From the NCBI GenBank assembly GCA_017410455.1, contig JAFQQT010000059.1, forward strand, positions 1 to 50,897: a stretch of DNA of 50,897 nt, written 5' to 3'. This document shows, piece by piece, positions 5,953 through 45,950 of this stretch. The notes below the pieces were generated by a model. It saw nothing but the letters and a program-made list of their open reading frames with translations, did not search any database and was not told where the DNA came from. Source of the DNA: Clostridia bacterium (GTDB taxonomy: Bacteria; Bacillota; Clostridia; Christensenellales; Aristaeellaceae). The first letter of the stretch is position 1; the number at the start of each line of letters is the position of its first letter. A program made the translations under genes and the position numbers.

Positions 5953-5982
5953 GCAAAAAGCCCCTCCGCAGCGGGAGGGGCC
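5953..5982 (-). terminator. Terminator after the GH30 gene
   Basis: On the minus strand the stem GCCCCTCCCGC/GCGGAGGGGC is followed by CTTTTTGC. It lies directly downstream of the GH30 stop and would end the long minus-strand array. Confidence 0.85.
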
Positions 5983-5987
5983 GGAGA

Positions 5988-7433
5988 TCATTTGGTCAGC
6001 ACGATGGTCACGACGGACTGCATCGGCACGGTGAACTCCGTCTTGACTGCGCCGTTGTAGGTGCGGGCGAGGTCACGGGCGTTGCTCGTTTCGTGGATCT
6101 CCATGGTGCGGTAGGCGCTGAAGTCGCCCTCCAGGGCGGCCACCTGATTGGTATAGGATTCGTTGATCAGCACGATGACCAGCTGCTCCTTGCCGTTGTT
6201 TTCGCCCTTGAAGGCCACGGGCAGCAGGTCGTCATTGCCGGAAACCTCCACGCGGGTGAAGCCCGGTCGGATGAAGCGGGTGTAGTTGCCGTAGGACCAC
6301 AGGCGCTTGAGAGGCACGATGGAGATGCTGCCATCGCCCGCCTCTGAGGCGTAGATCAGGCCGTCACGATAGCCGCCGGGGGCCACGCCCACCCAGTTGG
6401 ACCAGGACACCACGTCCAGGATGGTCAGATCCTCCTGCACGACCTTGGCCAGGTTGATGGCGCTGTCCATGCCGAAGTCGGAGCCGTTGACCATCTCGCA
6501 CCACTCGCTCATGCGGATCTTCACGTCCGGGTACTGCACCTTCATCCAGTTCCTGAAGGAGATCTTGGACTGGGTGTTGGACCAGTAGGAGTGGCAGTCG
6601 ATGGCGGTGAAGTGCCCGTTGAGGCGGGAATTGCCCAGGATGGCGGAGACGTAGGAGATGGTCTGGCCGCCCCACTCGCCGCTCTCGGGGCCGGAGAGCT
6701 CAACGCCCGCAGCCACCAGGGCAGGGCGCTTCTCCAGCTCCTCCAGGAAGGCGATGTACACGCCCGCGATCTCGTTGGGCTCGTAGTGGCAGCCCTCCTG
6801 ATCGCCAGCCCACTCCCACTGGGGCTCGTTGATGGGGGAGATGAACTTGACGGGGATGCCCAGCTCAAGGAAGTGCTCAGCCACGTCGCAGCAGTAAACG
6901 GCCCATTCGGCGTAGTTCTCCGGGTCGATGTTGCTGGTGGTGCCGGGGGTCAGGTGGGCCCAGCCGTTCTTGGTCAGGCGCTCGAGGGGGCTGTTGCAGA
7001 ACAGCACGACCTCGGTCACGCCCAGGCGGGTGGCCTCCTGCACGAACCACATTGCGCCCTCGTCCTTGGACCAGTCGTATTCACCAGGGGCAACCTCGAA
7101 GGACTGCGCGCGGCGGTTGGGATCCCAGTAGGAGCCGTTGCCGCTGTCAGCGGAGCCCGCGCCCAGGTTGTAGCGGACGTTGGTCAGGCCGATGCCGTAG
7201 GTGGGGTCGAAGAGGAGCGTCGCGATGCGCTGGCGGTTGGTGCGCATCGTGTTCATGTACTTGCTGTCCCATGTGCCCATGTACTGGGCCCACCAGCACA
7301 GGCTCGTACCGAAGGATTCGATGGTCTGGTAGGTGACGGTTTCGTCAATCTTCATGGTGACCTCCGCGAGGGCGGGCAGGCAGCAGGCGCACAGCATCAC
7401 TGCCGCTGCCAGCAGGGAAAGGAATTTCTTCAT
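5988..7433 (-). CDS. Secreted glycoside hydrolase family 30 (endo-beta-1,6-galactanase-like)
   Basis: 481 residues from the ATG at 7433 (AAGGAGG six bases upstream; the open frame extends further up but has no ribosome binding site there). A signal peptide (MKKFLSLLAAAVML..., cleavage near ALAE) is followed by a TIM barrel and a short C-terminal beta domain. The retaining-enzyme acid/base is probably Glu203 in SPINEPQWEW and the nucleophile Glu310 in RMSEWCEM. The opening SFGTSLCWWAQY resembles the GH30 group that cuts beta-1,6-galactan, rather than the glucosylceramidase or xylanase groups; this subfamily call is from memory of motifs. It lies at the end of the ABC/DUF5696 array, behind a weak hairpin, and could feed sugars to that importer. 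Confidence 0.85.
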   Translation of the reverse strand: MKKFLSLLAAAVMLCACCLPALAEVTMKIDETVTYQTIESFGTSLCWWAQYMGTWDSKYMNTMRTNRQRIATLLFDPTYGIGLTNVRYNLGAGSADSGNGSYWDPNRRAQSFEVAPGEYDWSKDEGAMWFVQEATRLGVTEVVLFCNSPLERLTKNGWAHLTPGTTSNIDPENYAEWAVYCCDVAEHFLELGIPVKFISPINEPQWEWAGDQEGCHYEPNEIAGVYIAFLEELEKRPALVAAGVELSGPESGEWGGQTISYVSAILGNSRLNGHFTAIDCHSYWSNTQSKISFRNWMKVQYPDVKIRMSEWCEMVNGSDFGMDSAINLAKVVQEDLTILDVVSWSNWVGVAPGGYRDGLIYASEAGDGSISIVPLKRLWSYGNYTRFIRPGFTRVEVSGNDDLLPVAFKGENNGKEQLVIVLINESYTNQVAALEGDFSAYRTMEIHETSNARDLARTYNGAVKTEFTVPMQSVVTIVLTK

Positions 7434-7460
7434 GTTGCCTCCTTGGGGAGATTCGGTAAA

Positions 7461-7496
7461 GCCCCCGCGCCGGTTGGGGTCAACAGACGCGGGGGC
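7461..7496 (-). terminator. Weak hairpin between the permease and GH30 genes
   Basis: A nine-base stem (GCCCCCGCG 7461-7469 with CGCGGGGGC 7488-7496), followed on the minus strand by only TTTACC. It may lower, rather than stop, transcription into GH30. No convincing separate GH30 promoter was found in the 229-base gap. Confidence 0.45.
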
Positions 7497-7508
7497 AGGG
7501 GGACGAAG

Positions 7509-7534
7509 TGAATTCGGAATTCGGAATTCAGGAT
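7509..7534. repeat. Short GGAATTC tandem motif
   Basis: GAATTCG-type heptamers are repeated head to tail in the gap before GH30. A looser version occurs at 34680-34714 in another gap. The same gap also holds two copies of GCCAATGGCGGAG (near 7552 and 7629). No function is known. Confidence 0.6.
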
Positions 7535-7662
7535 TGCTGGAGTCACTCGGCGCCAATGGCGGAGGGATGGGTCGCAGCCCCCTGGCGTCCGAAGCTGTCA
7601 GGCGCGTGGGACTGCGATGCCGCCCAGTGCCAATGGCGGAGAATGGTCCAGCGGAACGCTGG

Positions 7663-8829
7663 TTAGCCGACCAGACCGGAGTTCTCCAGGTTCTCGACCA
7701 GCCAGCGCTGCGCGAAGAGGTACACGGCCAGCAGCGGCACCAGGAAGATGAGCACGCCGGCCTGCTTGACCGCATCGAAGGTCAGGTCGCTGGCCTTGGA
7801 CAGGCCGAAGAGGCGGGTGGCGGTGTCCTGCACGAAGCGCTTCTGCGTGTCGTTGTTGGCGAACACGGTGGCCAGCTTCGCGCCCAGGTACTGCCCGTCG
7901 GGGTCGAAGTAGCGGGTGAAGTAGGTGTCGCCGTAGTTCCACACGAAGGACAGGATCGCCACGATCACGATGGCCGGGATGGCGTTGGGGATCATGACCT
8001 TGAAGTAGGTCCTGTAGAAGCCGCAGCCGTCGATCAGCGCCGCTTCCTCCAGCTCCTTGGGGATGTTCTTGAAGAACTGGCTGAAGATGAGGATCATCAG
8101 GCTCTGGTTCACGCCGAAGCCCAGCGCGGCCATGAGGTAGAGCGAGGCGGGATTGCCGATCAGGTTGGTCTCCGCACCCCACAGGCGCATGATGTAGAAT
8201 GCGTCGAAGTGCTGGAAGTACACATACTGCGCGACCAGCAGCGACTGACGGGGCACCAGGAAGGCCAGCACCACCATCAGGAAGAGGATGGGCGTGCCGT
8301 ACTTGTAGTTCACGCGGGCCATGGTGTAGCCGGTCATGGCGGAGATGAACACCTGGATGGCCATGATGGCCAGGGCGTAGAAGATGGAGTACGCCAGCGT
8401 CATGACGCCCTGCTTGAGGATGAAGTAGGAGGCCATCTCGAAGGACTGGGTGGAGAACTCCTCAGGGATCCAGATGACGTTGGGGTTGCCCAGATCCTCC
8501 AGATTGGCCAGCACCGTGGGCACCAGCTTCAGGAAGGGGTGCAGGATGACGAAGCACAGGCCCAGGATGAGGATCAGGGTGATGACGCCCATGGAGAAGT
8601 TGCCGACCTTCTGCTTGGCCATGTAGAGGTTCTGCTCGTTGGTCAGCTTGATCTTCTTCTTGGGCTGATTGAGCGGGGGTGGGGTGGCCACGGCGCCGCG
8701 GTTGGGCACGAAGATGGACTTGCCCTCGCTGTTGGGCATGGTCATGGAGCCCTGGGTGGTGACGGGAGGCGTGGAGGCGGACTGCTTGGTGGCGGCGATG
8801 ATGTTCGCCTTCTGCCGCTTGTTAGCCAT
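7663..8829 (-). CDS. Carbohydrate ABC transporter permease, MalG/AraQ type
   Basis: 388 residues with six predicted membrane spans and the EAA loop EAALIDGCGFYRTYFKVMIP, which docks to the ATPase. It carries an unusually long hydrophilic N-terminus of about 75 residues rich in Lys, Gln and Pro before the first span; family members usually start close to that span. It overlaps the previous permease gene by eight bases, and the pair would form one transmembrane channel. No ATPase gene is present in the window, so a shared MsmX-type ATPase is expected. Confidence 0.93.
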   Translation of the reverse strand: MANKRQKANIIAATKQSASTPPVTTQGSMTMPNSEGKSIFVPNRGAVATPPPLNQPKKKIKLTNEQNLYMAKQKVGNFSMGVITLILILGLCFVILHPFLKLVPTVLANLEDLGNPNVIWIPEEFSTQSFEMASYFILKQGVMTLAYSIFYALAIMAIQVFISAMTGYTMARVNYKYGTPILFLMVVLAFLVPRQSLLVAQYVYFQHFDAFYIMRLWGAETNLIGNPASLYLMAALGFGVNQSLMILIFSQFFKNIPKELEEAALIDGCGFYRTYFKVMIPNAIPAIVIVAILSFVWNYGDTYFTRYFDPDGQYLGAKLATVFANNDTQKRFVQDTATRLFGLSKASDLTFDAVKQAGVLIFLVPLLAVYLFAQRWLVENLENSGLVG

Positions 8830-9721
8830 TGTTCGACACCACCTTTCTGAAGGCCAGCAGGGCCAGACCCAGGATGATCAGGACGTTGAAGATGTACACC
8901 ACCGAGAGCGCGGAAGCCACGCCGATCTTGCTGCCGTGCACCACGAAGCCGAAGTTGTACACTTCCTCGGCGATCTGGCTGGTGAGGAACAGGTCGATGA
9001 TGGTGTAGATGACAACGAACATGACGATGTGCATGATGGAGGGGATGGTGACCTTCCAGAAGGTCTCGTAGGCGGTGGCGCCTTCGATCTTGGCAACCTC
9101 ATACATGCTGGGGCTGATGGACTGGAGCGCGGCGAGGAACACCAGCGTCTGCACGCCGGAGCGGGCGATGACGGAGAAGATGTCCTCCACGAACTGGATG
9201 ATGGGGTTGAGGTACGTCGTGGGGATGGCCGTGTACTGCACCAGGAGCCTGGTCACCAGGCCCTCGGCGAACAGGCCGTTGGACTGCACCATCTCGCTGC
9301 CGGTGGATACCGTCAGCATCTCCGTCACCACGTCCAGGCCCAGAATGATGGGCAGGAAGAAGATCATACGCACGATGGCGCGGCCCTTGAACTGCCGGTT
9401 GGCCAGCAGCGCCAGGAACAGCGACAGGAGCGTGATCAGGGGCATGTTGATGAGCATGTAGCTGTTCTCATCCAGCAGCACGCGCAGGATCTGCACGTTG
9501 CTGTCCACCGTGGAAACCTCGGTGGCGAACAGGTCCACATAGTTCTGGATGCCCAGGAAGGTGAAGCTCATGCCGCCGGTTTCCGGCACTTCGATCTTCT
9601 GGAAGGAGTAGTAGATGGTTTGCCCCAGCGGCACGGCGAAGAACATCAGGAAGCCCAGAATGAAGGGGATCAGGAATGTGAAACCCAGCAGCTTGCGCTT
9701 CGTTTCATACGTCAGGTTCAC
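8822..9721 (-). CDS. Sugar ABC transporter permease, MalF/UgpA type
   Basis: 299 residues, GTG start overlapping the DUF5696 stop (GTGA) with AAGGAGG upstream. Six or so membrane spans and the EAA loop EVAKIEGATAYETFWKVTIP are visible. It pairs with the MalG-type permease that follows. This second permease pair lies after the DUF5696 gene and has no binding protein directly beside it, so it probably works with one of the two encoded at the start of the array. Confidence 0.93.
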   Translation of the reverse strand: MNLTYETKRKLLGFTFLIPFILGFLMFFAVPLGQTIYYSFQKIEVPETGGMSFTFLGIQNYVDLFATEVSTVDSNVQILRVLLDENSYMLINMPLITLLSLFLALLANRQFKGRAIVRMIFFLPIILGLDVVTEMLTVSTGSEMVQSNGLFAEGLVTRLLVQYTAIPTTYLNPIIQFVEDIFSVIARSGVQTLVFLAALQSISPSMYEVAKIEGATAYETFWKVTIPSIMHIVMFVVIYTIIDLFLTSQIAEEVYNFGFVVHGSKIGVASALSVVYIFNVLIILGLALLAFRKVVSNNG

Positions 9722-12423
9722 AGGGCGCCTCCTTCCTGCGCGGGGGCAACCAGCAGGTAAGTGCCGGGCGCCACCGTGCCTTCGGTGGATTCATAGGGCA
9801 GGGCGGAGTAGTTGGTGATGACCACCACATCGCCCTCGTAGGTGGTGCGGAAGACCTGGGGCTGCAGCAACTCGTGGTTCACGATATCGCGGCCGCCGAT
9901 CTTTTCGCGCAGCTCGTCGCACCTGGCGGCGGTTTCGGTGATCTCCTTCTGCCAGGCATCCCAGTGCACGGCGTACATGGCCTCAAAATGGCTGCTCTTG
10001 AGCACATCGGGGTTCTGCACGCAGATGGTGTACTTGATGGAGGTGCCCAGCTCAGCCGCCTGCATGAGGAAGTAATCCGCATCGCGGGAGGAGAGGTTGA
10101 CGTCGGTGGAGACCACCTGGGTCAGGCCGGAGAGGGCCAGCTGACGGAAGGGCACTGTGGCGTAGTAGGAGGCGTAGCCGCTGCTCTGACGGGACACGTC
10201 GGTGGCGTAGGTACCCATGGCGGCCACATCCGCGAAGGGGTTGCTCAGCGCCAGGTTCGTGTTGTCAGAGCCGAGGATCTCCAGGGCCTGCTTCACATAC
10301 GCGCGGGACTGCACGGGGTTGACCACATCGTTGTAGCGGTAGTCCGCATAGACGGTGTTGGCCAGGTCGCCGATGGCGAGGTTCGCGCCGGCCAGGGTAT
10401 CGCTGCCGATCTTGTCCTCGCGGATGCTCTCAGCCAGGGAGGCGAAGAAGCGCGGGGAAACGTAGGTGTACTCGCGGATGGGATCCCAGCGGCCATTCAT
10501 GCGCGCGGTGTCAGCACGGTAGAGGTAGACGGTCATGGCGCTGTTGGAGTAGTCGCGCATCGCGTGCAGGTAGGGGATGTAGTTGCGGCCATTGTCGTAG
10601 ACCTTGCTCAGGTTCACCTGCAGGAAGAAGTCGCTGCCGTTGTCCGCCGCGGCGTCCAGGAGCTGGGCCAGCTCGGCTTCCTTGCCGTTCTGGCTGACGA
10701 GCTTCAGGCCATCGTTGAGGCTGGAGAGGATGCCGCCGTTGAAGGCGCCATCATACTGGTAGGCAACGCCGTGACCCTTCAGGGCATTGACGACTTCCAG
10801 CGCGTCCGCGTAGGTGGTCATGGACTTGGTGGCATCGTAGGGCACGCCCACGAAACGCTCCGTGAGGGTCACCGCGCCCATCAGCTCCAGGTAGATGCCG
10901 GGGCCCTTGGGGGTCTCGACCGTCTTGCCGGAGATCTCGGCCAGGTAATCACGGTAGGTCATGGCCATGTCGTAGTAGGTCACCTTGTCGGCGTAGGGGA
11001 TGTAGCGGACGGTGAAGTCCGTATCGATGTGGCCGGAGGTGGCCAGGTAAGAGGCGGTGTTGTCCGCATACGCGCCGTAGATGCGCACCCAGGAGTGCTC
11101 CAGGGTATCCACGGAAACGTAGGCCTTGTTCTTACCCGAGGTGGGGGAGGCGAGGGAAACGTGCAGGTTGGCGGTTTCCGAGCCTTCCTCGATGATGGCC
11201 AGCATGCCGTGAGTGCTCTCGGCGCCGCCGTACATCACGCCGAAGACGGGCATCATCAGCTCCTCGGCATACTCGCTCTGCCAGTAGTAATCGTTGATGT
11301 AGTCGTTGTCCATGTAGGGGCGGAGCACATCAGGGATGGTACCGTCAGAGGTGTTGAACTCCATCAGCGCGCCTGCGCCGTCGGGCACGAGGTAGTAGCC
11401 CTTTTCTTCCTTGCTGGCGGCAGTGGCGCACAGGTTGGGCAGCACATGGATGCGCTGGAGCTGGAAGTACTCGTTGTAGTTGACGATCTCGTCCGTGGGG
11501 ATGTTAACGACGATTTCGCCCTTCTCATTCAGGGTGACCTCGATCACGAGGCTGAAGTTGGCCAGCTGGGGGTTCTCAGCGGTGTGGCCGTAGGTCGCGC
11601 AGTCTGCCAGGAGCATTTCGCGCGTGTAGCCGACCTGCTCCGCCAGCGCGATGATCTGGCGATCCGCGTCGGGGTTGGCGCTGTTGCCCGAGGTCTGGAA
11701 GGGGTACTTGGTGGGGTCGGAGGGATCGACGCGCCAGTAGCGCTCGAACACCGCGCGGTAGAGCACCTCAGTGCCTTCCGCCTCCAGCTCCTCGATGCGG
11801 GAGATGAAGAAGTCGTAGCTCTCCTTGGAAAGGGTGCGGGGCATGTACGCGAACAGCTTCTTGGTGTTGTCCAGGATGCGCATCTCGATGCGCACGCCGT
11901 TCTCGATCCGGTAGACCTGGTCGTAGTACGCCTGGGTTGTCACGCCGGTTTCCGCGCCGGTTTCGGGGTCGACTTCGTTGACCGATGCGTAGAGCATGGT
12001 GCCGTTATCATAGGAGTTGAAGGTGGTGAACACGTTGTTCGCGCCCACGAATTCGACCAGCAGCAGGGCCTTGTCTTCGCCGGTTTCCGCATTGGGCATG
12101 GCGGAGGACCAGACGGTGCCGTTGCTGTCGGTGAGGGTGAAGATCATCTCGACCGGGTCGTAGGACAGGACGCGGCCTGCCTGCTCGGCGACCACGACCG
12201 TCTCGCCCTTGCGGTAGAGCTTGCCGTTGGACACGCCCGGCTCGAAGTAGATCTGCTCACCCAGCGTGGCGGGGGCGCTCTGCTCCACAGGGACGTCCGT
12301 CGCCTTCAGGGAGAAGGCGGGGGCGTACCAGATCAGCAGGCCGATGCCGATGATGACAACCAGCGTCAGCAGCGTCCAGCGGATGGGGTGGGAACCGTAG
12401 AAATTCTTGATCTTTTCCAGCAT
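9718..12423 (-). CDS. DUF5696 protein, membrane-anchored, putative TIM-barrel enzyme
   Basis: 901 residues from the ATG at 12423 (AAAGGAGG upstream). One N-terminal membrane span (about 15-32) leaves nearly everything outside. The first half is beta-rich. The second half (about 500-800) looks like a TIM barrel, with segments such as GHGVAYQYDGAFNGG, SDFFLQVNLSKVYDNG and SNSAMTVYLYRADTARM. The layout matches the family I know as DUF5696, which accompanies sugar ABC transporters in Firmicutes and whose activity is not described. A surface glycosidase or glycan-binding role is likely by context only; I cannot assign catalytic residues. Confidence 0.8.
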   Translation of the reverse strand: MLEKIKNFYGSHPIRWTLLTLVVIIGIGLLIWYAPAFSLKATDVPVEQSAPATLGEQIYFEPGVSNGKLYRKGETVVVAEQAGRVLSYDPVEMIFTLTDSNGTVWSSAMPNAETGEDKALLLVEFVGANNVFTTFNSYDNGTMLYASVNEVDPETGAETGVTTQAYYDQVYRIENGVRIEMRILDNTKKLFAYMPRTLSKESYDFFISRIEELEAEGTEVLYRAVFERYWRVDPSDPTKYPFQTSGNSANPDADRQIIALAEQVGYTREMLLADCATYGHTAENPQLANFSLVIEVTLNEKGEIVVNIPTDEIVNYNEYFQLQRIHVLPNLCATAASKEEKGYYLVPDGAGALMEFNTSDGTIPDVLRPYMDNDYINDYYWQSEYAEELMMPVFGVMYGGAESTHGMLAIIEEGSETANLHVSLASPTSGKNKAYVSVDTLEHSWVRIYGAYADNTASYLATSGHIDTDFTVRYIPYADKVTYYDMAMTYRDYLAEISGKTVETPKGPGIYLELMGAVTLTERFVGVPYDATKSMTTYADALEVVNALKGHGVAYQYDGAFNGGILSSLNDGLKLVSQNGKEAELAQLLDAAADNGSDFFLQVNLSKVYDNGRNYIPYLHAMRDYSNSAMTVYLYRADTARMNGRWDPIREYTYVSPRFFASLAESIREDKIGSDTLAGANLAIGDLANTVYADYRYNDVVNPVQSRAYVKQALEILGSDNTNLALSNPFADVAAMGTYATDVSRQSSGYASYYATVPFRQLALSGLTQVVSTDVNLSSRDADYFLMQAAELGTSIKYTICVQNPDVLKSSHFEAMYAVHWDAWQKEITETAARCDELREKIGGRDIVNHELLQPQVFRTTYEGDVVVITNYSALPYESTEGTVAPGTYLLVAPAQEGGAL

Positions 12424-12438
12424 GTTCGAACCCCTCCT

Positions 12439-13071
12439 TTACTGCAGGCGGCGCATCAGCTCTTCCGTCACCGAGGCGACGAAGGAGTACATGCGCTCCA
12501 GCATGGTGAAAATCAGCACGCCGATGAACAGGATGACGGCCGCAGCCACCACGGTCATCACCATGGAGGCAAGGTTGCCGGCAAAGCTGTATTCATGGAC
12601 GGTGCCCAGGCCTGCGATGAGCAGGAAGACGAAGTACGCATAGCAGACCATCTGGATGGAGGTGAGGATCATGACCTCCTCGGTGGTGACAAAGTTGCTG
12701 GCAAAGGTCACGATGGCGTCGCCGACGATCAGCACCGTCAGGCTGTAGCAGATGACGATGTAGATGTCCTTGAGCTTGCCCTTGCCGTTGAACAGCGTGG
12801 TGATGGTCCAGTTGGACACCGACGCCAGCACCACCACGGAGATGGTGGAGATGAAGATGGACAGCGCGTCCATCTCGTCGATGTTGTTCATGTTCATCAC
12901 GAAGCCCGTGTACTGATAGCTCAGGCACCGCAGGATCGCGTAGATGACGAGCAGCGCGGTGGCGATCAGGAGGCTACCGTGATTGCGGAAGCGGATCTCG
13001 AAGAAGCCGTCAAAGGGGTGCAGAAGCGAGTGCCCCCAGTACTGCAGCTTGTCTTTGGTCAGCAGCTTCAC
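12439..13071 (-). CDS. YIP1-type polytopic membrane protein
   Basis: 210 residues with a GTG start that overlaps the previous stop (GTGA). After a short cytosolic head (KDKLQYWGHSLLHPFDGFFEI, typical of the YIP1 group) come about five membrane spans. YIP1-like proteins in bacteria have no fixed function. Its constant place between the NHL protein and DUF5696 genes suggests a membrane partner of those proteins; this is an inference. Confidence 0.8.
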   Translation of the reverse strand: MKLLTKDKLQYWGHSLLHPFDGFFEIRFRNHGSLLIATALLVIYAILRCLSYQYTGFVMNMNNIDEMDALSIFISTISVVVLASVSNWTITTLFNGKGKLKDIYIVICYSLTVLIVGDAIVTFASNFVTTEEVMILTSIQMVCYAYFVFLLIAGLGTVHEYSFAGNLASMVMTVVAAAVILFIGVLIFTMLERMYSFVASVTEELMRRLQ

Positions 13072-14645
13072 TTGCTCAACCTCCTTTGCTTGCGGTGATA
13101 GGCAACCTCAGACCAGAGCACTGCGCCGATGGCCACGACAGCCACGACGGCAATGATGCCGAAGTTCTCCTTCATGACGATGGTGCGGTATCCCTTGTAG
13201 GCCTTGGAGTAGAACTCGTGGTTGTTGCCAAGCTTGAAGTAGCGCATGGCCTCCTCGTATTCCTCCTGCATCAGCTTGTTCTTGCCGATGCCCACATAGG
13301 CCGTTTCCAGGTTCGCGCACAGGCGCAGCACTTCCTCGAACCAGCTGGTCGCTTCGTCCCAGTCGCCGTTGTAGTATGCCTCGGAGGCGTTCAGCAGCGC
13401 CATGCCGAAGTCGGTGGGCTCGAAGATGTACATGCACTTCAGGCCGCTGTCGGTCACAACCAGCTTATCGCCCAGCCAGGCGATGCCCGTGGGATTGCGG
13501 AACTGGCCGGAGAGGTTGCCCATGGAGCCGAAGACCGTCAGCAGCTCGCCATCGAAGTTGTACATGAAGATGCGGCCACGGGTCTTGTCCAGCACGGCGT
13601 AGACGCCGTAGGGCTTGACGGCGATGTCGGTGAAGGCGCTGGCGGCGTCGGGCCCCAGGTCACCCACCACGGGCGTGTTGCCCATCTCGCGCAGGACGTT
13701 GGCGCCGGCGAAGTTCAGGCGGAAGACGCTCTTGGTGGCGGCCGAGTCGCTGGTGACGGCCATGATGAAGCCTTCGCCATCCAGGGTGACGTTGTTGAAG
13801 GCGGGCGCGTAGGTCTTGCCCATCTTCTCCTTCTGCTCATCGGTGGCGATGGACTTCCAGAAGAAATCCAGCAGGTTGATGGTGGGCTCGTTCACGCCGA
13901 AGTAGCGGGAGAAGGAGCCATCCTCGTTCAGCTCGATGATGCCCTCGTAGCTGGACTTGACGACCACGTAGATGCGGTCGGCGTTGTCCACGGCGAGCTT
14001 CGCGGGCTTGAACTCGGTCGCGCCGGTCATATCGGCGGGACGGTAGATGAAGCGCTTGAAGAGGAAGGTAGTGCCGTCCAGCACGACGATGCGCTGGTTG
14101 CCGGAATCGGCGATGTACAGCTCATTGGTCTTCTCGTGGAAGAACACGCCCTCGCAGCCCTTCAGGCTCGTGGTGGTCTTGGTGGAGGAATCGGGCATGC
14201 CATTGGCGTCCACGGTGAGGTTGGAGGCGCGGCCCTTGTCGTTGAGGGTCTTGATGGTGTTGATGGGGTTGATGCCCGTCAGCTCATTGCCGTTCTCATC
14301 GTAGATGGTGGCCATGGTGCCATCGGCGTTGAAGATGTAGACGCGGCCGGTCTCCGGGTTGCCGTCCGCCACGATGATGCGGCCGTCGGAGGTGGTGCAC
14401 ACGTCAGACACCGTATTGAAGGGGAAGGATGTGGCAGAGGTCTGCCCCTTGGAGTTGGTGCGGTACACCGTGCCTTCGGTAATCACCATGGAAAGGTTGA
14501 AGGCCGCAGGGGTGGACTTGATGTTGCCGTAGAAGTCGAAGGTGTAACCCTGGTAAACATTGCTGGAGCCGGTCGCGGCGAAGCTGACGCTTCCCGCCAG
14601 GATCAGGAGGGCGGCCAGCATGATTGCAATGATTCTCTTCATCAT
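13068..14645 (-). CDS. NHL-type beta-propeller/TPR protein, C-terminally anchored
   Basis: 525 residues from the ATG at 14645 (AAGGAGG upstream), with a signal peptide (1-22). Six-bladed-propeller-like repeats (about 45-420) show NHL motifs such as LYIADSGNQRIVVLD and FRNPTGIAWLGDKLVVTDSG. A short TPR-like helical region follows (about 420-480: AYYNGDWDEATSWFEEVLRL, EEYEEAMRYFKLG). One membrane span near the end (IIAVVAVVAIGAVLW) leaves a basic tail inside. The propeller therefore faces outward from the membrane. A glycan- or protein-binding scaffold for the importer is a reasonable guess; no enzyme motif was seen. Confidence 0.82.
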   Translation of the reverse strand: MMKRIIAIMLAALLILAGSVSFAATGSSNVYQGYTFDFYGNIKSTPAAFNLSMVITEGTVYRTNSKGQTSATSFPFNTVSDVCTTSDGRIIVADGNPETGRVYIFNADGTMATIYDENGNELTGINPINTIKTLNDKGRASNLTVDANGMPDSSTKTTTSLKGCEGVFFHEKTNELYIADSGNQRIVVLDGTTFLFKRFIYRPADMTGATEFKPAKLAVDNADRIYVVVKSSYEGIIELNEDGSFSRYFGVNEPTINLLDFFWKSIATDEQKEKMGKTYAPAFNNVTLDGEGFIMAVTSDSAATKSVFRLNFAGANVLREMGNTPVVGDLGPDAASAFTDIAVKPYGVYAVLDKTRGRIFMYNFDGELLTVFGSMGNLSGQFRNPTGIAWLGDKLVVTDSGLKCMYIFEPTDFGMALLNASEAYYNGDWDEATSWFEEVLRLCANLETAYVGIGKNKLMQEEYEEAMRYFKLGNNHEFYSKAYKGYRTIVMKENFGIIAVVAVVAIGAVLWSEVAYHRKQRRLSK

Positions 14646-14657
14646 CTGTGCGCCTCC

Positions 14658-15752
14658 TTAATCCTTCATGCCCGAGGTGGACATGGTTTCGATGACGTTG
14701 GACTGGGAAATGACGAACACCGCCACGGGCACGGTCATCATGATCAGAGAAACCGCAGAGGACACGCCCGTACGCGCGATGCCGCCGGAGACCAGCTGGC
14801 TGAGCACGTAGGACAGGGGCTTGAGTTCCTCGGAGTAGATGAACACGCCGCCGGTGGTGCCCCACATCTGCTGGAAGGACAGGATGATCAGGGTGATCCA
14901 TGCCGGCTTACACAGGGGCATGATGATCTTCCAGTAGATGGTGAACTCCTGCGCGCCGTCGATGGTGGCGGCCTCCAGCAGGGAGTCGGGGATCTGGCCG
15001 ATGAAGTTCTTCATCAGGTACAGGCCCAGCGTGCCGCCAACGGCCGTCAGGATCACCGCCCAGTAGGTATCCACCAGGCCCAGGTAGGTCATGATCAGGT
15101 AGTTGGGGATGGCCGTCACGGCGCTGGAGAACATCAGCGCGTACACGATCAGCTGGCTCATCACGCGGCTGCCCGGGAACTCATACTTCGCCAGCGCGAA
15201 GGCGGCCAGGCTGCCCAGCATCACCGTGCCGAAGGTGCCCAGGCCGGTGATGATCAGCGTGTTGAACAGGTAGCGGGACAGCGGGATGTCGAAGCCCTCC
15301 AGGATGAAGGAGAGGTCGAGGAAGTTGTCCAGCGTGGGGTTGTCAACGGTCAGCTTGGGCGGGAAGATGAAGATCTCGCTCATGGGCTTGAAGGCGTTGA
15401 CTACCGTGTACACCAGCGGGAACAGGGAGAAGATGCCGAAGATGCCCAGGAAGATCATCAGCGCGATATCCACCGCCAGGGAGCGGCGGGTGCGCAGGCG
15501 GCGCTTGCGCAGGAAGGTCTGAACATTGGGCAGCATGATGAAGGCCACAAACAGCGTCACGAAGGGAATCAGGATCAGGATCGACTTCAGGATCCTGGGG
15601 AGCTCGCCCTGCAGGAGGAAGATCAGCCCGTAGGACAGCGCGTAGAAGGCGATCCAGCCCGCCGCAAAGGCGATGACCAGGCGCAGCGCACAGGCGAGGA
15701 AGCTGATCTTGTCCGGTTTGGTCTGGTAAAGATTCTTCTTTTTCTTAGCCAT
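14658..15752 (-). CDS. Carbohydrate ABC transporter permease, MalG type
   Basis: 364 residues with a Lys-rich start (MAKKKKNLYQ). Two extra hydrophobic segments (about 20-75) precede the usual six-span permease core. The EAA loop is EAATIDGAQEFTIYWKIIMP. It lies 14 bases after its partner permease, and the two would form the first of two channels in the array. Confidence 0.93.
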   Translation of the reverse strand: MAKKKKNLYQTKPDKISFLACALRLVIAFAAGWIAFYALSYGLIFLLQGELPRILKSILILIPFVTLFVAFIMLPNVQTFLRKRRLRTRRSLAVDIALMIFLGIFGIFSLFPLVYTVVNAFKPMSEIFIFPPKLTVDNPTLDNFLDLSFILEGFDIPLSRYLFNTLIITGLGTFGTVMLGSLAAFALAKYEFPGSRVMSQLIVYALMFSSAVTAIPNYLIMTYLGLVDTYWAVILTAVGGTLGLYLMKNFIGQIPDSLLEAATIDGAQEFTIYWKIIMPLCKPAWITLIILSFQQMWGTTGGVFIYSEELKPLSYVLSQLVSGGIARTGVSSAVSLIMMTVPVAVFVISQSNVIETMSTSGMKD

Positions 15753-15766
15753 TTCTCTTTACCCCC

Positions 15767-16672
15767 TTAACCGATTTTGCGCAGGACCTTCTGCACCAGG
15801 ATGTTGCAGAAGAGCATCAGCAGGAACAGGAACACCGCGATGGTACAGGCGTAGCCCATCTCATAGCGGAGGTTGCCGTAGTCATGCAGGTGGGTCATGA
15901 TGGTATGGCCCGCATAGTTGACCGACGGGAAGCCCACCAGGTCCAGGGAGATCTGGCTGACGGAGAAGGAGTTGGTGATCTGCATCACCGCGCCGAACAT
16001 CAGCTGGGGCTTCATGGCGGGCAGGGTGATGTACCACAGCTCCTGCCAGCGGTTCTTGATGCCTTCCACAGCGCCCGCCTCGTACATCGCGCGGTCAACG
16101 GTCTGAAGGCCTGCGATGAAGGACAGGAAGGACACACCCAGGCTCATCCAGATCTGCACGACGATCAGGATGGGCATGATGTAGGCCTCGGTGGTCAGCC
16201 AGTAGATCGGCTCCTGCAGGAAGCCCAGCTTCATCAGCCACGCATTGGCATAGCCGTAGGTGTCCGAGGAGAAGATCAGCTTCCACACCAGGTACACATT
16301 GCCGGAGATGGAGGGCGCGTAGAACACCAGCGTCATGATGGCGCGGGGGATCGGCGGCAGCTCGTTGATCAGCCAGGCAAAGATGAAGCACATGATGTAG
16401 GACAGCGGGCCGGTCAGGATGGCGAAGACCAGCGTGTTCTTGATGGCGGTGAGGAACACGTCGTCTTCAACGATCAGGGTGACGTAGTTGCGCAGGCCGG
16501 TGAAGTCCGGCAGGCTGGTCATGTTGAAGGACGTGAAGCTCAGGAAGATGGAGGCCGCAACCGGCAGCACCGTGAACAGGATGAACACGATGGCGAAAGG
16601 GGCCACCATGAGATACTGATTGCGATATTTCTTCATCGCCGCGCCCAGAGGCAGCTTGTTTGCAGTTGTCAT
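15767..16672 (-). CDS. Sugar ABC transporter permease, MalF type
   Basis: 301 residues, ATG at 16672 with AGGAGG upstream. Six predicted spans and the EAA loop EAGAVEGIKNRWQELWYITL are visible. It is encoded between the anchored binding protein and the MalG-type partner, the standard order for sugar importers. Confidence 0.93.
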   Translation of the reverse strand: MTTANKLPLGAAMKKYRNQYLMVAPFAIVFILFTVLPVAASIFLSFTSFNMTSLPDFTGLRNYVTLIVEDDVFLTAIKNTLVFAILTGPLSYIMCFIFAWLINELPPIPRAIMTLVFYAPSISGNVYLVWKLIFSSDTYGYANAWLMKLGFLQEPIYWLTTEAYIMPILIVVQIWMSLGVSFLSFIAGLQTVDRAMYEAGAVEGIKNRWQELWYITLPAMKPQLMFGAVMQITNSFSVSQISLDLVGFPSVNYAGHTIMTHLHDYGNLRYEMGYACTIAVFLFLLMLFCNILVQKVLRKIG

Positions 16673-16687
16673 GCGTGTCTCCCTCCT

Positions 16688-19600
16688 TTACTCTGCGGTC
16701 GTGTCGGCAGTGGCGGAGGCTTCGGGCAGCGTGGTGGGCAGCCCGAACTCCTCGCGCTTCTTGAGCAGTTCCTTGTCGATATCGCGGATGTTGAGGTACA
16801 GCGTCTCGCGCGGGTTGGCGAGGTCAGCCACAACGTCCTCGAAGGCGTAGGAAATCATGCGGGTGTTCATGTAGTAGCCGGGAACGGCGGGCATGCTGAC
16901 CAGGTTCTCGTACTGGGCCAGCAGCTGCTCCTGCTCGTAGTTGGACCAGGGCAGCTGGCGGATCACATTGGGGTCAGCCGCGGGGTAACGGGCGGCGGCG
17001 CCCATGATGGATTCCAGCGTGGTGGCGTAGGAGACCTGCTGCTCGGTGGCGTTCCACCACTGGATGAACTCCCAGGCGGCGTCGCCCTTGCTGCGGGTCA
17101 GGGCAGCATTCATCATCACGGTCTGCACGGTATCGCAGACGTAGGTGTTGTCGATGGTGCCGTCTTCCTTCATGGTGCCGGGCAGGGGAGAGAAGCTCCA
17201 CAGGCCCTTGATTTCCGGCGCGAAGATCTCCAGCGTGCAGTAGGTGGTGTAGTCCGTCACGCCCATGGGCATCTCGCCCGTGCGGAAGCGGTTGTTGAAG
17301 TCCGCCTGCACCTCCAGGCCGTGGACGGTGAACAGGTCGGTGTACCACTTGAAGGCTTCCATCGCCTCATCGGAGTAGAGCGCGGAGGCCATGCCGTAGG
17401 TGCCGTTCTCGCCCTCTTCGCCCAGGTAGATCTCGCCCTCGTTCTGGTACACCATGGCCATGAAGACGTTCAGGCCGGTGCCCACGCGGGTGGAGGGCAT
17501 GTAGAACTCGTAGTTCTCGCGGTTGAGGATGGGGATGAGCTCCATCACATCGTCCCAGGTCTGGGGGACGCTTTCGATGTTCAGCTCCTCCATGACGTCC
17601 TCGCGGTAGAAGAACATCTGGAAGGTGACCTGCTCGGGGATGCCATAGGAGCCGCCGTTGTAGGTGGTGGCGCGCATGACGCCCTCGGAGTAGCGGGAAA
17701 CGAAGGCGTCGAAGCCTTCCATCTGGCTCAGATCCACCGTGGCGCCACGCATGGCGAAGTCCTGCGCGGTGGTCTGGCCCAGGCCGATGACCACGTCCGG
17801 GCCGTTGCCGGCCAGGGCGGCACGCAGCACCACGTCCATGGGGATCAGCTGGAGCTTGACGCGGATGCCGGTCTCGGGGGAGAAGGTTTCGTCGATCATG
17901 TTCTGGATGATCTGGGCCTGCTCGCGGCCGGCAGAGGCCATCCACACGGTGATCTCCGTATCGCCGGCCTCAGCGGTGTCGTCAGAAACGACGGAGCTGG
18001 TGGAGGTGAAGAAGGTGGCGAAGAAACGCTGCGTTTCCGCCACGATGCCCTCGAAGAAGCTCTCGCGCGGGGTGGGCAGGGAAGCCGTGTCGGCGGAGAG
18101 GATGATGGCGTCCAGCTCCAGGGGCATGCTGGAGATATCGTTGATCCAGGTGCCCAGGGCAGCGATGTTGTTCTTGAGCTGGCTCAGCTCCTCAACGATG
18201 CGCTCCGGATCCTTCGACAGACCTTCGGCCTGGATGGCCATCTTCTCCAGCATGGCGGTGTTCTCGCCCTTTTCGCCGGTGATGGCGACCATCTGGTCCA
18301 CCAGGCGGAACAGGCGCTCGCTCTCGGCGACCAGCGTATCCACAAAGCCGGGAACCTTGTCGGCGATCTCGTAGTCAATGTAGAGGCTGGGCACCTGGCC
18401 GGTGATCTGGATGGTGGACAGGTACAGGGCGTTCAGCGTGCGCAGGGAGGCTTCCACCTCGGACACCACGCCGCCGATGGAACCCAGCACACACTCCAGG
18501 GTGATGGCGTTCCTGCCGGCCTTGAGGGGGATGAGGTAGGGCGTGCCATCCTCGGTGGCGAAGGTGTAGTTCTGCATCACGCCGGAGTAATCAAAGCCCA
18601 CGACCTCGGCCTCGGCGAAGGGAACCTCGCCGTTGACCATCAGGCGGCGGTAGGCAGTGACGCCGCGGGAGGTCTGACGGCCCTTGAAGGAGAGCACGTA
18701 GAGGCCGTCCTCGGGAACCTCGATCTCCCAGGTGATGGCGTCGCCGGGCAGGGCCCAGCTGCTGGCGCCGATGGTGGGGTAGAGGATGTGCCAGGCGTGG
18801 AAGGGTACCAGCGCCGCGTCGGAGTAGTTCTTCTGCACCGTCACGGCGGGGGAGGTCTTCAGCACGTCGGTGGTGGCGTTTTCCACCTCGAGCACGGTGT
18901 GCTTCGGGTTGCCGTTCTCATCCGTATCAGCGGGATAGTCGCGGCGCTCGGCCTGGCCGACGATGGGCTCCCCGGCATAGGCGGGGATGCCCTCCCACTC
19001 CGCGCTGGCGGCCTCGTAGGCGGGCAGTTCCGGCGCCGCCATGAAGGTCAGGGAGGAGATGGCCAGGGGCTCCTTCACCGCCACGAAGGTGAGGGTGTGC
19101 TCACCGGCGGTGAGGTGGAGGATCAGCGGGGCGCCGGAGCGGCGATCGTAATCCTCCAGGAACACGACCTGCTCGCGGAGCACCTCGCGGGCGTTGGGGC
19201 GGATCTCGTTGCCGCTCTTGAGGCGGATGTCCTCATCGCGCCACAGGCGCTTGAAAACGATCTGCTCCAGCGCGTCATAGGGCGCCTCGCCATCGATCAG
19301 GACCTGGCGCTGCACGTCGGAGGTGGTGCCGGGCAGCGCCACATAGCCAACCTGCAGGTTGTAGAAGCCTTCCTCCTCAACGGTGAAGGTCCAGGTGACA
19401 GAACCGGTATCGGAGGTGTTCAGGGCGGTCACGTCAACGGTTTCCACGTCAACGTCCGCAAAGTTGATGCCCTCGGGGAAGGCACTGGTGGCCGCGTCAT
19501 CACCGGCCACGCCGGAGAAAACGTCCACTTCCACGACCGCGCCGGCATTGACGCCGGTATAGCCGTGTTCGTCCAGATAGGCCTGGTAGACGGCCTCGCG

Positions 19601-19732
19601 GGCGTTGCCCTCGCTTGTCCCGGGCACTGCGTACATAGGCTTTTCGCCGCCTGAGAGCAGCAGGACAAGCAAAATGACAACCGCGACGACCCCGATCGCC
19701 AGACCGATCAGGAGCTTTTTGTTCCTGGTCAC
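16688..19732 (-). CDS. Membrane-anchored substrate-binding protein with CBM35-like modules
   Basis: About 1014 residues. I prefer the GTG at 19732, about 11 bases from AAAAGGGG; the frame also has a GTG at 19744, but that overlaps the ribosome binding site. An uncleaved N-terminal span (KKLLIGLAIGVVAVVILLVL) replaces the usual lipobox. Two beta-sandwich modules resembling CBM35 follow (about 60-215 and 235-405; EEEGFYNLQVGYVALPGT, PEDGLYVLSFKGRQTSRG). Next is a helical stretch (about 420-585), then a family-1 extracellular solute-binding domain (about 595-1010; TEITVWMASAGREQAQIIQN, GNGPDVVIGLG). It should catch an oligosaccharide for the permeases downstream. The long fusion is unusual for this family. 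Confidence 0.85.
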   Translation of the reverse strand: MTRNKKLLIGLAIGVVAVVILLVLLLSGGEKPMYAVPGTSEGNAREAVYQAYLDEHGYTGVNAGAVVEVDVFSGVAGDDAATSAFPEGINFADVDVETVDVTALNTSDTGSVTWTFTVEEEGFYNLQVGYVALPGTTSDVQRQVLIDGEAPYDALEQIVFKRLWRDEDIRLKSGNEIRPNAREVLREQVVFLEDYDRRSGAPLILHLTAGEHTLTFVAVKEPLAISSLTFMAAPELPAYEAASAEWEGIPAYAGEPIVGQAERRDYPADTDENGNPKHTVLEVENATTDVLKTSPAVTVQKNYSDAALVPFHAWHILYPTIGASSWALPGDAITWEIEVPEDGLYVLSFKGRQTSRGVTAYRRLMVNGEVPFAEAEVVGFDYSGVMQNYTFATEDGTPYLIPLKAGRNAITLECVLGSIGGVVSEVEASLRTLNALYLSTIQITGQVPSLYIDYEIADKVPGFVDTLVAESERLFRLVDQMVAITGEKGENTAMLEKMAIQAEGLSKDPERIVEELSQLKNNIAALGTWINDISSMPLELDAIILSADTASLPTPRESFFEGIVAETQRFFATFFTSTSSVVSDDTAEAGDTEITVWMASAGREQAQIIQNMIDETFSPETGIRVKLQLIPMDVVLRAALAGNGPDVVIGLGQTTAQDFAMRGATVDLSQMEGFDAFVSRYSEGVMRATTYNGGSYGIPEQVTFQMFFYREDVMEELNIESVPQTWDDVMELIPILNRENYEFYMPSTRVGTGLNVFMAMVYQNEGEIYLGEEGENGTYGMASALYSDEAMEAFKWYTDLFTVHGLEVQADFNNRFRTGEMPMGVTDYTTYCTLEIFAPEIKGLWSFSPLPGTMKEDGTIDNTYVCDTVQTVMMNAALTRSKGDAAWEFIQWWNATEQQVSYATTLESIMGAAARYPAADPNVIRQLPWSNYEQEQLLAQYENLVSMPAVPGYYMNTRMISYAFEDVVADLANPRETLYLNIRDIDKELLKKREEFGLPTTLPEASATADTTAE

Positions 19733-19830
19733 GGGTCGATTCACCCCTTTTGCGTATTTGGTGCCCGGAGCCCCGGGCGGAATGGCTTCGGAGCCGTGGC
19801 TCCGGGCTTGTCAGGCATGTGAATGAGAAA

Positions 19831-19870
19831 AGCGGGCGCTGATTGGGCATCTGCCCTCTCAACGCCCGCA
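19831..19870 (-). terminator. Hairpin-T terminator between the two binding-protein genes
   Basis: On the minus strand a stem GCGGGCGTTGA.../...TCAGCGCCCGC encloses a smaller GGGCA/TGCCC hairpin and is followed by TTTTCTC. It lies 30 bases after the stop of the first binding-protein gene. It probably makes that gene the most abundant message, with limited readthrough into the rest of the array. Confidence 0.75.
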
Positions 19871-19899
19871 GGGTTACTTAACTTGATCGCGCAGAGAGA

Positions 19900-21906
19900 T
19901 TACTCGGCGACAACCTCAACCTCGATCTCGACCTCGGCGGTGTTGCCGGCGTAGTCGGTCACGGTCAGGGTGACGAAGTAGAAGTCCGGGAAGGAGGTGT
20001 CCAGCTCGGTGGTGTCAGCCACGATGTTGGCCTTGATGTCCAGGCCATCGGCGTCCACAGCGGTCTCGACGTAAGCGCCGGCCCAGTCGATGGCTTCCAT
20101 GTCGGAGTCCATGGCGATGGTGGGCAGCTCAGCCTTCACGGTCAGGGTGGGAGCGGTGGTGTTCTCAGCGTTGTAGACGATGACGTCGACCTTCGCGGAG
20201 CCCTCGTTGCCAGCCTTGTCGGTGAAGATGGCCTTGGCCTGGTAGGTGCCAACGGTGGTCACGTCAACGCGGTTCTCGACCTCGTAGATGGCCATGTAGG
20301 GATCCATCACGCCGTCGAAGCCGTCCTCAGCGGTGAAGAACTGGGCCCAGTCGATGGCAGTCAGGTCGGAATCCTTGGCAACGATAGCCTTGCCGGAGAC
20401 GGACACGGAGGGAGCCTGGTTGTCGTTGAGCTCGGTGGAGCCCAGGATGGCGGTCATCTCATCAACGACCTCGGTGAACTTGTTCAGGTTGGCCTTGATG
20501 GCGATGTCGTAGGCGGGCATGCCGTCAACGCCGGCCAGGCCCTTGCCCATGATCTGATCCCAGGGATCGCGCATGCCCAGGTTGCCGGACACGTCGTTGG
20601 GGATGCACAGCTCGGAGTTGAAGATGAAGGCGTCCAGAACCTTCTGGCCGTAAACTTCGTTGTCGATGTTCAGGCCGTACTTCATGGCCTCGTCCTCAGC
20701 GACGGCAGCCTTGTACAGGTCCATATCGGTGACGCCGGCCTTCAGGGAGTAGTAGGTCTCCCAGTAGGTGCGGTAGGAAGCCAGGGTCAGCTCGGTCATC
20801 TCGGGAGAGACGCCCTTGAGGATGCCGTCGATATCGCCGACGGAGATGACCTGACGGTAGGCGGGATCATAGGTGACGGTGCCGTCCTCGGCAACGGTGA
20901 CCAGATCGTCAGCAGCAGGCCAAGGCATGATGGCGATGGACTCACCACGGGCGGAACAGGAATCAGCAAAGCCCTTGATCATCCAGATGGGGCAGTCGGC
21001 GAAGACAGCAGCGCCGCGGCCCAGGTCGTTACCGGCCTCGCACCACTGGGGGGTCCAGCCGTCGTCGTACACGCCACAGACCTTGGCGTAGCCCAGATCC
21101 AGCAGCTCCTTGATGTAAGCGATGGCCTCGATGGACTCCGCGGAGTCAGCGATCACGCCAGCATCACCGTAGATGCCGCCGCCGTTGGCGTACATGGCAG
21201 CCAGGCCGGCGAAGCGGTAGTCGGTCTCGTAAGCGGCAATGGTCTCTACCTTCGCGCCGTCGGGAGCGGGGGTGTTGCCATAGTAGGCGTCGATCTTGGC
21301 CAGGTAATCCTTGAAGTTGGACCAGGTCCACTTACCCTGGGCCAGCAGGTCCATGGGGTAGATGGTGTTACCGTTCTCGTCCTTCAGGGCGTCGACCTTC
21401 TCGATCATGGTCAGGTTGACGCACAGGGTGAAGTACTCGGTGAAGGACACGTTGGTGTTGATGAAGTAGTTGTGGCCGAACACGGCAGTGGGCCACATCC
21501 ACTCAGCGCCTTCGAAGATGTAGGCGTAATCGTCCAGGGGCTGCAGGATGTTCTGCGCCAGAACGGTGCTCTCGGAGCCGGACCACATGCGGGCGATTTC
21601 GCAGCAGGGGTTGCCGGCCAGCACGGACAGAACCAGCTCGGAGCGGGTGTCCTGAGCGTACTGCACGTGGACGATCTTGACGTTGTGCTTCTCCAGCACG
21701 GCGGCCTCGGCGGCCAGACGCAGCTGACGGTCAGCCTCGTCGGTCATGGAGTAGGTGCCGGTGGTCTCGTCGATCTGGTTGGGGTCCTGACCAGCGGTCC
21801 AGTGGGTGCCCCAACGCACGATGATGGGCTCCTCGGCAACAGCGATGGCGGGCAGCATGGCCACAACCATCAGCATGGCGAGCAGCAGGGCGACAAACTT
21901 CTTCAT
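19900..21906 (-). CDS. Extracellular solute-binding protein with C-terminal Ig-like domains
   Basis: 668 residues, ATG at 21906 behind GAGGAGG. A signal peptide (MKKFVALLLAMLMVVAMLPA, cut near AVA-EE) has no lipobox Cys. Residues about 25-500 look like a sugar-type solute-binding domain (EPIIVRWGTHWTAGQDPNQI, SVLAGNPCCEIARMWSG, QGKWTWSNFKDYLAKIDAYY). The end carries two Ig-like domains of the DUF5011 sort (about 500-585 and 590-668: AKAIFTDKAGNEGS, FVTLTVTDYAGNTAEVEI). The first gene of the array, with its own strong promoter and a terminator behind it, so probably highly expressed. With no lipid anchor it may be held at the surface through the Ig-like tail. Confidence 0.87.
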   Translation of the reverse strand: MKKFVALLLAMLMVVAMLPAIAVAEEPIIVRWGTHWTAGQDPNQIDETTGTYSMTDEADRQLRLAAEAAVLEKHNVKIVHVQYAQDTRSELVLSVLAGNPCCEIARMWSGSESTVLAQNILQPLDDYAYIFEGAEWMWPTAVFGHNYFINTNVSFTEYFTLCVNLTMIEKVDALKDENGNTIYPMDLLAQGKWTWSNFKDYLAKIDAYYGNTPAPDGAKVETIAAYETDYRFAGLAAMYANGGGIYGDAGVIADSAESIEAIAYIKELLDLGYAKVCGVYDDGWTPQWCEAGNDLGRGAAVFADCPIWMIKGFADSCSARGESIAIMPWPAADDLVTVAEDGTVTYDPAYRQVISVGDIDGILKGVSPEMTELTLASYRTYWETYYSLKAGVTDMDLYKAAVAEDEAMKYGLNIDNEVYGQKVLDAFIFNSELCIPNDVSGNLGMRDPWDQIMGKGLAGVDGMPAYDIAIKANLNKFTEVVDEMTAILGSTELNDNQAPSVSVSGKAIVAKDSDLTAIDWAQFFTAEDGFDGVMDPYMAIYEVENRVDVTTVGTYQAKAIFTDKAGNEGSAKVDVIVYNAENTTAPTLTVKAELPTIAMDSDMEAIDWAGAYVETAVDADGLDIKANIVADTTELDTSFPDFYFVTLTVTDYAGNTAEVEIEVEVVAE

Positions 21907-27752: not shown

Positions 27753-27792
27753 GGCGACGTCCTCCTGTGTGATGATGAGTTGTGTTGCGCTC

Positions 27793-45940: not shown

Positions 45941-45950
45941 CGGTTGCTCC

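Follow-up and report, generated by a model that had tools for sequence, protein, structure and literature searches.

Eight adjacent genes in a 50,897-nucleotide (nt) contig of a Clostridia bacterium (Aristaeellaceae; GenBank assembly GCA_017410455.1, contig JAFQQT010000059.1; the whole stretch is hereafter the window) form a cassette whose conservation is confirmed in other genomes of the phylum Bacillota. They encode, in this order, a long anchored solute-binding protein (SBP) named S2, a first pair of ATP-binding cassette (ABC) importer permeases (A1 and B1), an NHL/TPR protein, a YIP1-domain membrane protein, a DUF5696 protein, and a second permease pair (A2 and B2). These are eight of ten genes that form a row in the window; the other two are a secreted binding protein (SBP1) and a glycoside hydrolase of family GH30. 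Together with an SBP1-type gene that usually lies nearby, the conserved core probably represents a glycan-uptake cassette of Bacillota, working as a twin-channel ABC importer with a non-catalytic DUF5696 receptor. This reading is built on directly established features, namely gene order, co-occurrence across genomes, NHL–YIP1 fusions, the DUF5696 fold, the loss of a residue in it, and the permease loops.

Conservation of the cassette

The genome that holds the window (3.3 Mb, 93 contigs) encodes five DUF5696 proteins, and every one of their genes lies in cassette order, although one copy is cut at a contig start and visible only from the NHL/TPR gene onward. A sixth copy (S2-A1-B1-NHL) is truncated by the end of contig C7. 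The other four DUF5696 proteins are 19–24% identical to that of the window, and in one of these copies (L010) the NHL/TPR and YIP1 parts are encoded in one open reading frame (ORF). In the window itself, the NHL/TPR, YIP1, DUF5696, A2, and B2 genes are adjacent on one strand, the arrangement by which a cassette was recognized.

Among 149 genomes sampled evenly across the phylum (the phylum sample), DUF5696 was detected in 12, with up to the 7 best matches scored per genome for DUF5696 and up to the 10 best for NHL. The same 12 genomes gave strong matches to the cassette models of YIP1 (E < 1e-30) and NHL/TPR (E < 1e-40), and weak matches were seen in three others for YIP1 (about 1e-7) and nine others for NHL/TPR (5e-20 to 5e-16). 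The informative part of this test is that none of the 137 genomes without DUF5696 gave a strong match to either model; cassette members supplied the sequences for the YIP1, NHL, and S2 models, and the first two include 7 of the 12 positive genomes, leaving G062, G082, G101, G103, and G135 as positives from outside the model building. For this reason a computed figure of 6e-18 is no fair probability and is not relied on, although the genes are grouped far more often than chance would allow. A YIP1 match lies within 6 kb and on the same strand for 40 of at least 43 DUF5696 matches, and the remaining three are at contig starts. Full-length S2 is present in the same 12 genomes (cut by a contig start in G103) and in G104, with a partial form in G080, while five further genomes match the S2 model only via the common SBP domain.

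Gene order was compared in 157 loci. Of these, 123 comprise the window, the four other copies of its genome, 38 loci of the phylum sample, and 80 named loci; a sample of the class contributed the other 34 full-length loci. The 80 named loci are the best 80 of at least 554 confirmed matches and are biased to relatives of one query. In the class sample, DUF5696 was matched in 44 of 148 genomes, some of them only by short or partial forms, and 40 of the 70 match rows were used. Many of the 157 loci come from shared genomes, one locus is counted twice (L011 and L116), and the calls of present, cut off, or absent rest on distance limits set by us. Under these limits, the calls are 119/25/13 for S2, 122/21/14 for A1, 123/15/19 for B1, 145/10/2 for NHL/TPR, 151/3/3 for YIP1, 153/4/0 for A2, and 150/6/1 for B2. 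All eight genes are present in 113 loci, and NHL/TPR and YIP1 are fused in one ORF in 42.

The few absences of NHL/TPR and YIP1 are explained as displacements or sequence ends by three loci: L037, where the fused gene is displaced downstream; L138, where DUF5696 is split into two ORFs (150 and 727 residues) about 3 kb apart in an otherwise complete cassette, possibly by an insertion; and L030, which begins inside YIP1. L148 has a displaced B1, B2 was not found in L090, and B1 is lacking in L016, L019, L025, L028, and L044, where S2 and mostly A1 are out of reach. S2-A1-B1 is missing, despite available sequence, from 13 loci that belong to four genomes (G040, G062, G082, and G135). All 13 carry the fused NHL–YIP1 gene, and 12 hold an SBP1-like gene on the same stretch. 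Since these loci keep NHL-YIP1-DUF5696 with A2-B2 alone, the three extra genes belong with the second permease pair, and S2-A1-B1 is a separable module. SBP1-type genes sit upstream or downstream of the cassette in other loci.

A first-pass annotation of the window had proposed that the DUF5696, YIP1, and NHL/TPR genes belong together, which rare adjacency in other genomes would have spoken against. Far from being rarely neighbors elsewhere, the three are held by the same 12 genomes of the phylum sample and are neighbors in nearly all of the 157 loci. Its further proposal that the row joins two importers needs refining, in that the extra genes go with the second pair.

The cassette is also found on plasmids. 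The same row of annotated names is present on pNP243 (243 kb) from Butyrivibrio fibrisolvens, a plasmid that also encodes a GH43 protein and a pair made up of a histidine kinase and a response regulator. On a plasmid from Paenibacillus cellulosilyticus, the annotated row lies behind a ugpC ATPase gene, and the length of its "YIP1 family protein" gene (2.2 kb) suggests an NHL–YIP1 fusion. This last cassette also adjoins four genes for LLM-class flavin oxidoreductases, and its cargo is perhaps other than ordinary plant glycans.

DUF5696 as a modified glycosidase fold

DUF5696 (385.5 bits in the window) is related to GH129-type glycosidases, exemplified by NagBb and DagB, both in fold and in sequence, as judged from a predicted structure and sequence searches. 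The TIM barrel that the first-pass annotation had put forward is present in the predicted structure, whose comparison points to a GH129-like fold. The Pfam model of GH129 (PF11308) matched none of the 149 genomes; it matched no control either, so this search is uninformative. Stand-alone DUF5696 homologues of 560–600 residues match NagBb at 1.3e-26 and in that alignment place an invariant Asp on NagBb D435 and an invariant Glu on E478 (residues counted by hand). We take E478 to be the acid/base. According to an excerpt of PMC5698469, D435 is a catalytic residue equivalent to D486 of DagB, and the title of a PDB entry names a DagB D486N Michaelis complex.

Both residues are kept by all six stand-alone relatives studied (L169–L174, 6 of 11 such rows), none of which has a cassette gene beside it, with one side cut in L169 and L173. 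From their sequences, these proteins resemble active, as yet uncharacterised glycosidases that would form a subfamily of their own. In the cassette copies, the column of D435 holds Asp in 113 of 157 (112 of 156 without the duplicate locus; D686 in the window). The column of E478 holds Glu in 15, Asp in 14, and Asn or Ser in 79 of 157 (15 Glu and 14 Asp of 156 without the duplicate), and the window has S727. In the predicted structure, D686 follows the strand 681–684 and S727 closes the strand 724–727, which are read as putative barrel strands 4 and 5. Since the Glu at the E478 position is mostly lost in the cassette copies and kept by NagBb and the stand-alone relatives, cutting by cassette DUF5696 proteins appears unlikely, and the simplest reading of the sequences would be a non-catalytic glycan receptor derived from a glycosidase fold. 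The N termini examined in cassette members begin with a transmembrane (TM) helix or a signal.

The NHL/TPR and YIP1 proteins

The NHL/TPR protein holds a signal peptide, NHL repeats (46.9 bits), TPR-like repeats that match below the Pfam cut-offs, and a C-terminal TM helix followed by a basic tail (signal and TM segments assigned by eye). The signal peptide and the single C-terminal helix with its basic tail indicate that the repeats should face outward. In the fused forms, YIP1 comes after this helix. The YIP1 protein belongs to PF04893 (62.9 bits, against a gathering cut-off of 28.6), gave no PDB sequence match at E 10, and carries a C-terminal E-x3-R motif that is invariant in 18 of 18 aligned sequences.

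Permeases, binding proteins, and the ATPase

All four permeases of the window match BPD_transp_1, A1 and A2 below the gathering score. The EAA-G loop is kept in all four permease classes, the four of the window included, so ATPase docking is expected in each class. This was read from aligned columns (23 loci for each class) in place of a simple EAA pattern, which missed most permeases. In a midpoint-rooted tree of the 23 loci, A1, A2, B1, and B2 each cluster (support 1.0, 0.22, 0.96, and 0.99, respectively), and this separate grouping indicates that A1-B1 and A2-B2 did not arise from one another by recent duplication.

S2 matches SBP_bac_1 (79.3 bits, 6e-22) and has an N-terminal region weakly resembling CBM35, below the Pfam cut-off. 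SBP1 matches no SBP family in Pfam, and a profile of cassette-associated binding proteins that was built without it matches it at 2e-20. With a solute-binding protein and paired permeases with EAA-G loops, the window holds two of the three features that were used to recognize CUT1 importers, the third being a MalK-type ATPase. As the first-pass annotation had stated, no ATPase is encoded in the row (none of the ten genes matched an ATPase family at E 0.001). Elsewhere in the genome there are six matches to OB_MalK, five of them above the cut-off and none on contigs C7, C47, C54, C60, C75, or C80.

Proposed mechanism and its alternatives

In the proposed mechanism, the cassette would form two CUT1-type channels, both driven by a MalK/MsmX-type ATPase encoded elsewhere. 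S2 and SBP1 would capture oligosaccharides, the anchored S2 feeding A1-B1 and SBP1 feeding A2-B2. The NHL/TPR protein, its TM helix, and YIP1 are envisaged as a single membrane scaffold, on which the anchored DUF5696 would bind surface oligosaccharides at the mouth of A2-B2 and pass them in. Cutting would be left to the variable carbohydrate-active enzymes (CAZymes) encoded nearby, which in the window are GH30, GH35, and GH43. The first-pass annotation had expected the surface machine itself to cut the glycan, an expectation that was not borne out: GH30 lies outside the conserved core after a gap of 229 nt, and DUF5696 has mostly lost its Glu. A bolder version, which we offer only tentatively, joins everything into a single twin-channel complex, in which the propeller/TPR–YIP1 scaffold and the dead GH129-fold receptor sit on one permease pair and cooperate with the second pair and the anchored carbohydrate-binding SBP, allowing long glycan fragments to be captured at the surface and threaded in.

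Several observations weigh against the proposed uptake cassette. In G104 and G080, S2 occurs without a detected DUF5696, and the contigs (3.8 and 3.1 kb, respectively) stop at this point. SBP1-like genes are found in only 110 of the 157 loci, some of them cut, and the A2 group of the permease tree is poorly supported (0.22). The N terminus of DUF5696 resembles a cleavable signal rather than an anchor in some members, such as L009. Finally, the presence of two permease pairs may reflect two independent importers, and we infer association, transport, and substrate from sequence. Along this line, the cassette could consist of two ordinary importers and three surface proteins, co-regulated for the same glycan but sharing no complex. 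The 13 loci that hold NHL/YIP1-DUF5696 with a single permease pair fit this view, as does the EAA-G loop of all four permease classes, through which either pair could work alone. It is nevertheless unlikely, given that the gene order is kept among DUF5696 copies of one genome that have diverged so far from that of the window, that NHL/TPR and YIP1 are encoded in one ORF in more than a quarter of the loci, and that genes in the window overlap by 4 nt.

The loss of catalysis in DUF5696 is not proven either, as the nucleophile column remains Asp in most copies, the window included. An active glycosidase that uses a different acid, by which the cassette would trim the glycan at the channel mouth, would agree with the GH129-like fold and with two further conserved columns, that of window residue 754 (Asp in 140 of 157 and 139 of 156 without the duplicate, but Tyr in the window) and that of residue 791 (Glu in 150 of 157 and 149 of 156); residues absent from NagBb are also used by DagB, as stated in the excerpt of PMC5698469. 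This alternative is rather improbable, since residue 791 is part of a helix in the predicted structure, the nucleophile column otherwise holds S, T, Y, Q, A, H, F, G, and others, and Asn or Ser replaces the Glu in half of the copies. Still another role would place NHL/TPR-YIP1-DUF5696 outside the transport path, where it would either sense a ligand or help the permeases to assemble, tasks for which propeller, TPR, and pseudo-enzyme domains, typical of interaction or sensing, would be well suited. The Pfam scan of the core genes, however, found no kinase or DNA-binding domain, and the adjoining regulators vary by locus (LacI or AraC type in some, a histidine kinase with a response regulator in another), which makes such a role very unlikely.

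Layout of the row in the window

The ten genes are read on the minus strand from 21906 to 5988 (Table 1), in the unidirectional array and the order that the first-pass annotation had given. The only wider gaps are those between SBP1 and S2 (155 nt) and between B2 and GH30 (229 nt). Within the eight genes from S2 to B2, neighbors are 12–15 nt apart (S2/A1 15, A1/B1 14, B1/NHL 12, YIP1/DUF5696 15) or overlap by 4–8 nt (NHL/YIP1 4, DUF5696/A2 4, A2/B2 8). An overlap of GH30 with B2 was rejected, as the ORF 5988–7775 is over-called: the start was moved from 7775 to the likely ATG at 7433 because AAGGAGG precedes this codon and a signal peptide begins there. Pfam backs nine of the ten gene names, SBP1 being the exception, with Glyco_hydr_30_2 matched at 187.6 bits. 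The row is flanked by a promoter-like site and a terminator-like hairpin, and a single transcript over the ten genes is likely. Such sites are not in excess in the region, where 4 promoter-like and 12 terminator-like sites compare with 4.3 and 10.0 in shuffled sequence.

Table 1. Features of the ten-gene row, in the order of transcription.
Feature	Coordinates	Strand	Basis or remark
Promoter-like site TTGACA-17-TACAAT, upstream of SBP1	22064..22092	-	11/12 consensus positions; consensus match only
SBP1, secreted solute-binding protein, C-terminal immunoglobulin-like region, 668 residues	19900..21906	-	Profile match 2e-20
S2, long binding protein, N-terminal signal anchor, SBP domain, 1018 residues	16688..19744	-	SBP_bac_1; first gene of the cassette
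A1 (permA1), ABC importer permease	15767..16672	-	BPD_transp_1, EAA-G loop
B1 (permB1), ABC importer permease	14658..15752	-	BPD_transp_1, EAA-G loop
NHL beta-propeller and TPR protein, signal peptide, C-terminal TM helix, 525 residues	13068..14645	-	Pfam NHL
YIP1-domain membrane protein, 210 residues	12439..13071	-	Pfam Yip1; C-terminal E-x3-R
DUF5696, N-terminal TM anchor (helix 13–37), beta domain, TIM barrel, C-terminal beta domain	9718..12423	-	Pfam, predicted structure
A2 (permA2), ABC importer permease	8822..9721	-	BPD_transp_1, EAA-G loop
B2 (permB2), ABC importer permease	7663..8829	-	BPD_transp_1, EAA-G loop
GH30, secreted glycoside hydrolase, 481 residues, cargo	5988..7433	-	Pfam; start corrected from 7775
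Terminator-like hairpin, 3' of GH30	5959..5982	-	Consensus match only

Neighboring enzymes and other features

GH30 is cargo of the cassette and not one of its core parts, a role that was rejected because paralogous cassettes adjoin other CAZymes: the loci in the same genome lie alongside CBM65, GH10-GH43, and GH51. Around the 123 loci, a set biased to relatives of one query, the flanking protein clusters (single-linkage, one representative scanned per cluster) comprise GH26 with CBM35 (51 genes in 47 loci), CBM65 (35 in 32), GH5 (15), and GH130 (11 in 9), pointing to beta-mannan as the target of many of these loci. In a scan of 98 of the 189 other flanking proteins, GH2, GH5, GH9, GH10, GH26, GH28, GH42, GH43, and GH130 were found 2–5 times each, these families being among the best 25 of 118; LacI or AraC regulators were also found. 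A role in galactan uptake only is rejected by the variety of flanking CAZymes (GH26, CBM65, GH5, GH130, GH10-GH43, and GH51).

For the window, the PDB matches of GH30 are, in order, 3clw ("conserved exported protein"), AcXbh30A, GH30 xylanases, and a secreted endo-beta-1,6-galactanase, and the combination of GH30, GH35, and GH43 makes arabinogalactan a plausible target. Polysaccharide utilisation loci of Gram-positive bacteria bring together CAZymes, transporters, and regulators. The window holds the three CAZymes and the transporters, with no regulator among the 30 ORFs scanned.

Downstream of the ten genes, an 822-residue protein (1064–3532, minus strand) ends in a dockerin type I domain. 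On the other side, a 793-residue protein (25548–27929, minus strand) combines a TIR_2 domain (2e-13) with a weak, sub-threshold match to a zinc-ribbon-like domain and with repeated membrane-containing C-terminal parts; at its end, the gene shares 4 nt with the beginning of the GH43 gene. Further features are an ECF transporter substrate-specific component (PF12822; 39584–40159, plus strand) and two adjacent CotH-kinase-domain proteins (43979–48002, minus strand) with matches to a chitobiase-like C-terminal domain and an InlB-type repeat.

Comparison with known systems

In the openly licensed PMC literature (CC0, CC BY, and CC BY-SA), DUF5696 is mentioned nowhere, and the listed papers that combine YIP1, NHL, ABC transporter, and solute-binding terms give no sign of a description of the system; nor are NHL or Yip1 mentioned in the excerpts of two papers on Clostridium phytofermentans (PMC4452783 and PMC4230839). 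The parts are annotated singly in public records, and the system as a whole is apparently undescribed within the literature searched, as the first-pass annotation had supposed. The recurrent row of "NHL", "YIP1", and "DUF5696" annotations is thereby explained, and DUF5696 gains an ancestry and a testable role. Unlike NagBb (a GH129 alpha-N-acetylgalactosaminidase) and DagB (a 3,6-anhydro-D-galactosidase), the cassette DUF5696 is encoded in an importer operon, starts with a TM helix or signal in the copies examined, and has mostly lost the Glu at the E478 position. Compared with the PF04893 family, the cassette YIP1 is bacterial and, in the fused loci, forms the C-terminal part of the NHL/TPR protein.

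ABC sugar importers are usually portrayed as a single binding protein with a single permease pair and a single ATPase. Like CUT1 importers of the MalFGK and MsmEFGK type, the cassette has solute-binding proteins, paired permeases with EAA-G loops, and no ATPase in its operon. In C. phytofermentans, operons typically hold one binding component along with two permeases, and most of them lack an ATPase (excerpt of PMC4452783). The cassette differs from CUT1 systems by its two distinct permease pairs, its two kinds of binding proteins, and the three conserved non-transporter genes between the pairs. Such an arrangement suggests a larger surface machine in Bacillota from gut, rumen, and soil, and the reduced form of the 13 loci indicates which of its parts must work together.

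SusCD-type uptake in Bacteroidota couples several surface capture proteins to import, with CAZymes alongside that depend on the glycan. The cassette, in which no SusC or SusD family was matched by any of the ten window genes in Pfam, resembles it in outline, combining surface capture, import, and variable CAZymes, with the energy presumably provided by an ABC ATPase. Its copies reach at least seven in some genomes, next to CAZymes for different plant glycans. Should the single twin-channel complex be true, Gram-positive bacteria would have their own equivalent of Sus-type uptake, which Bacillota would reuse for many glycans.

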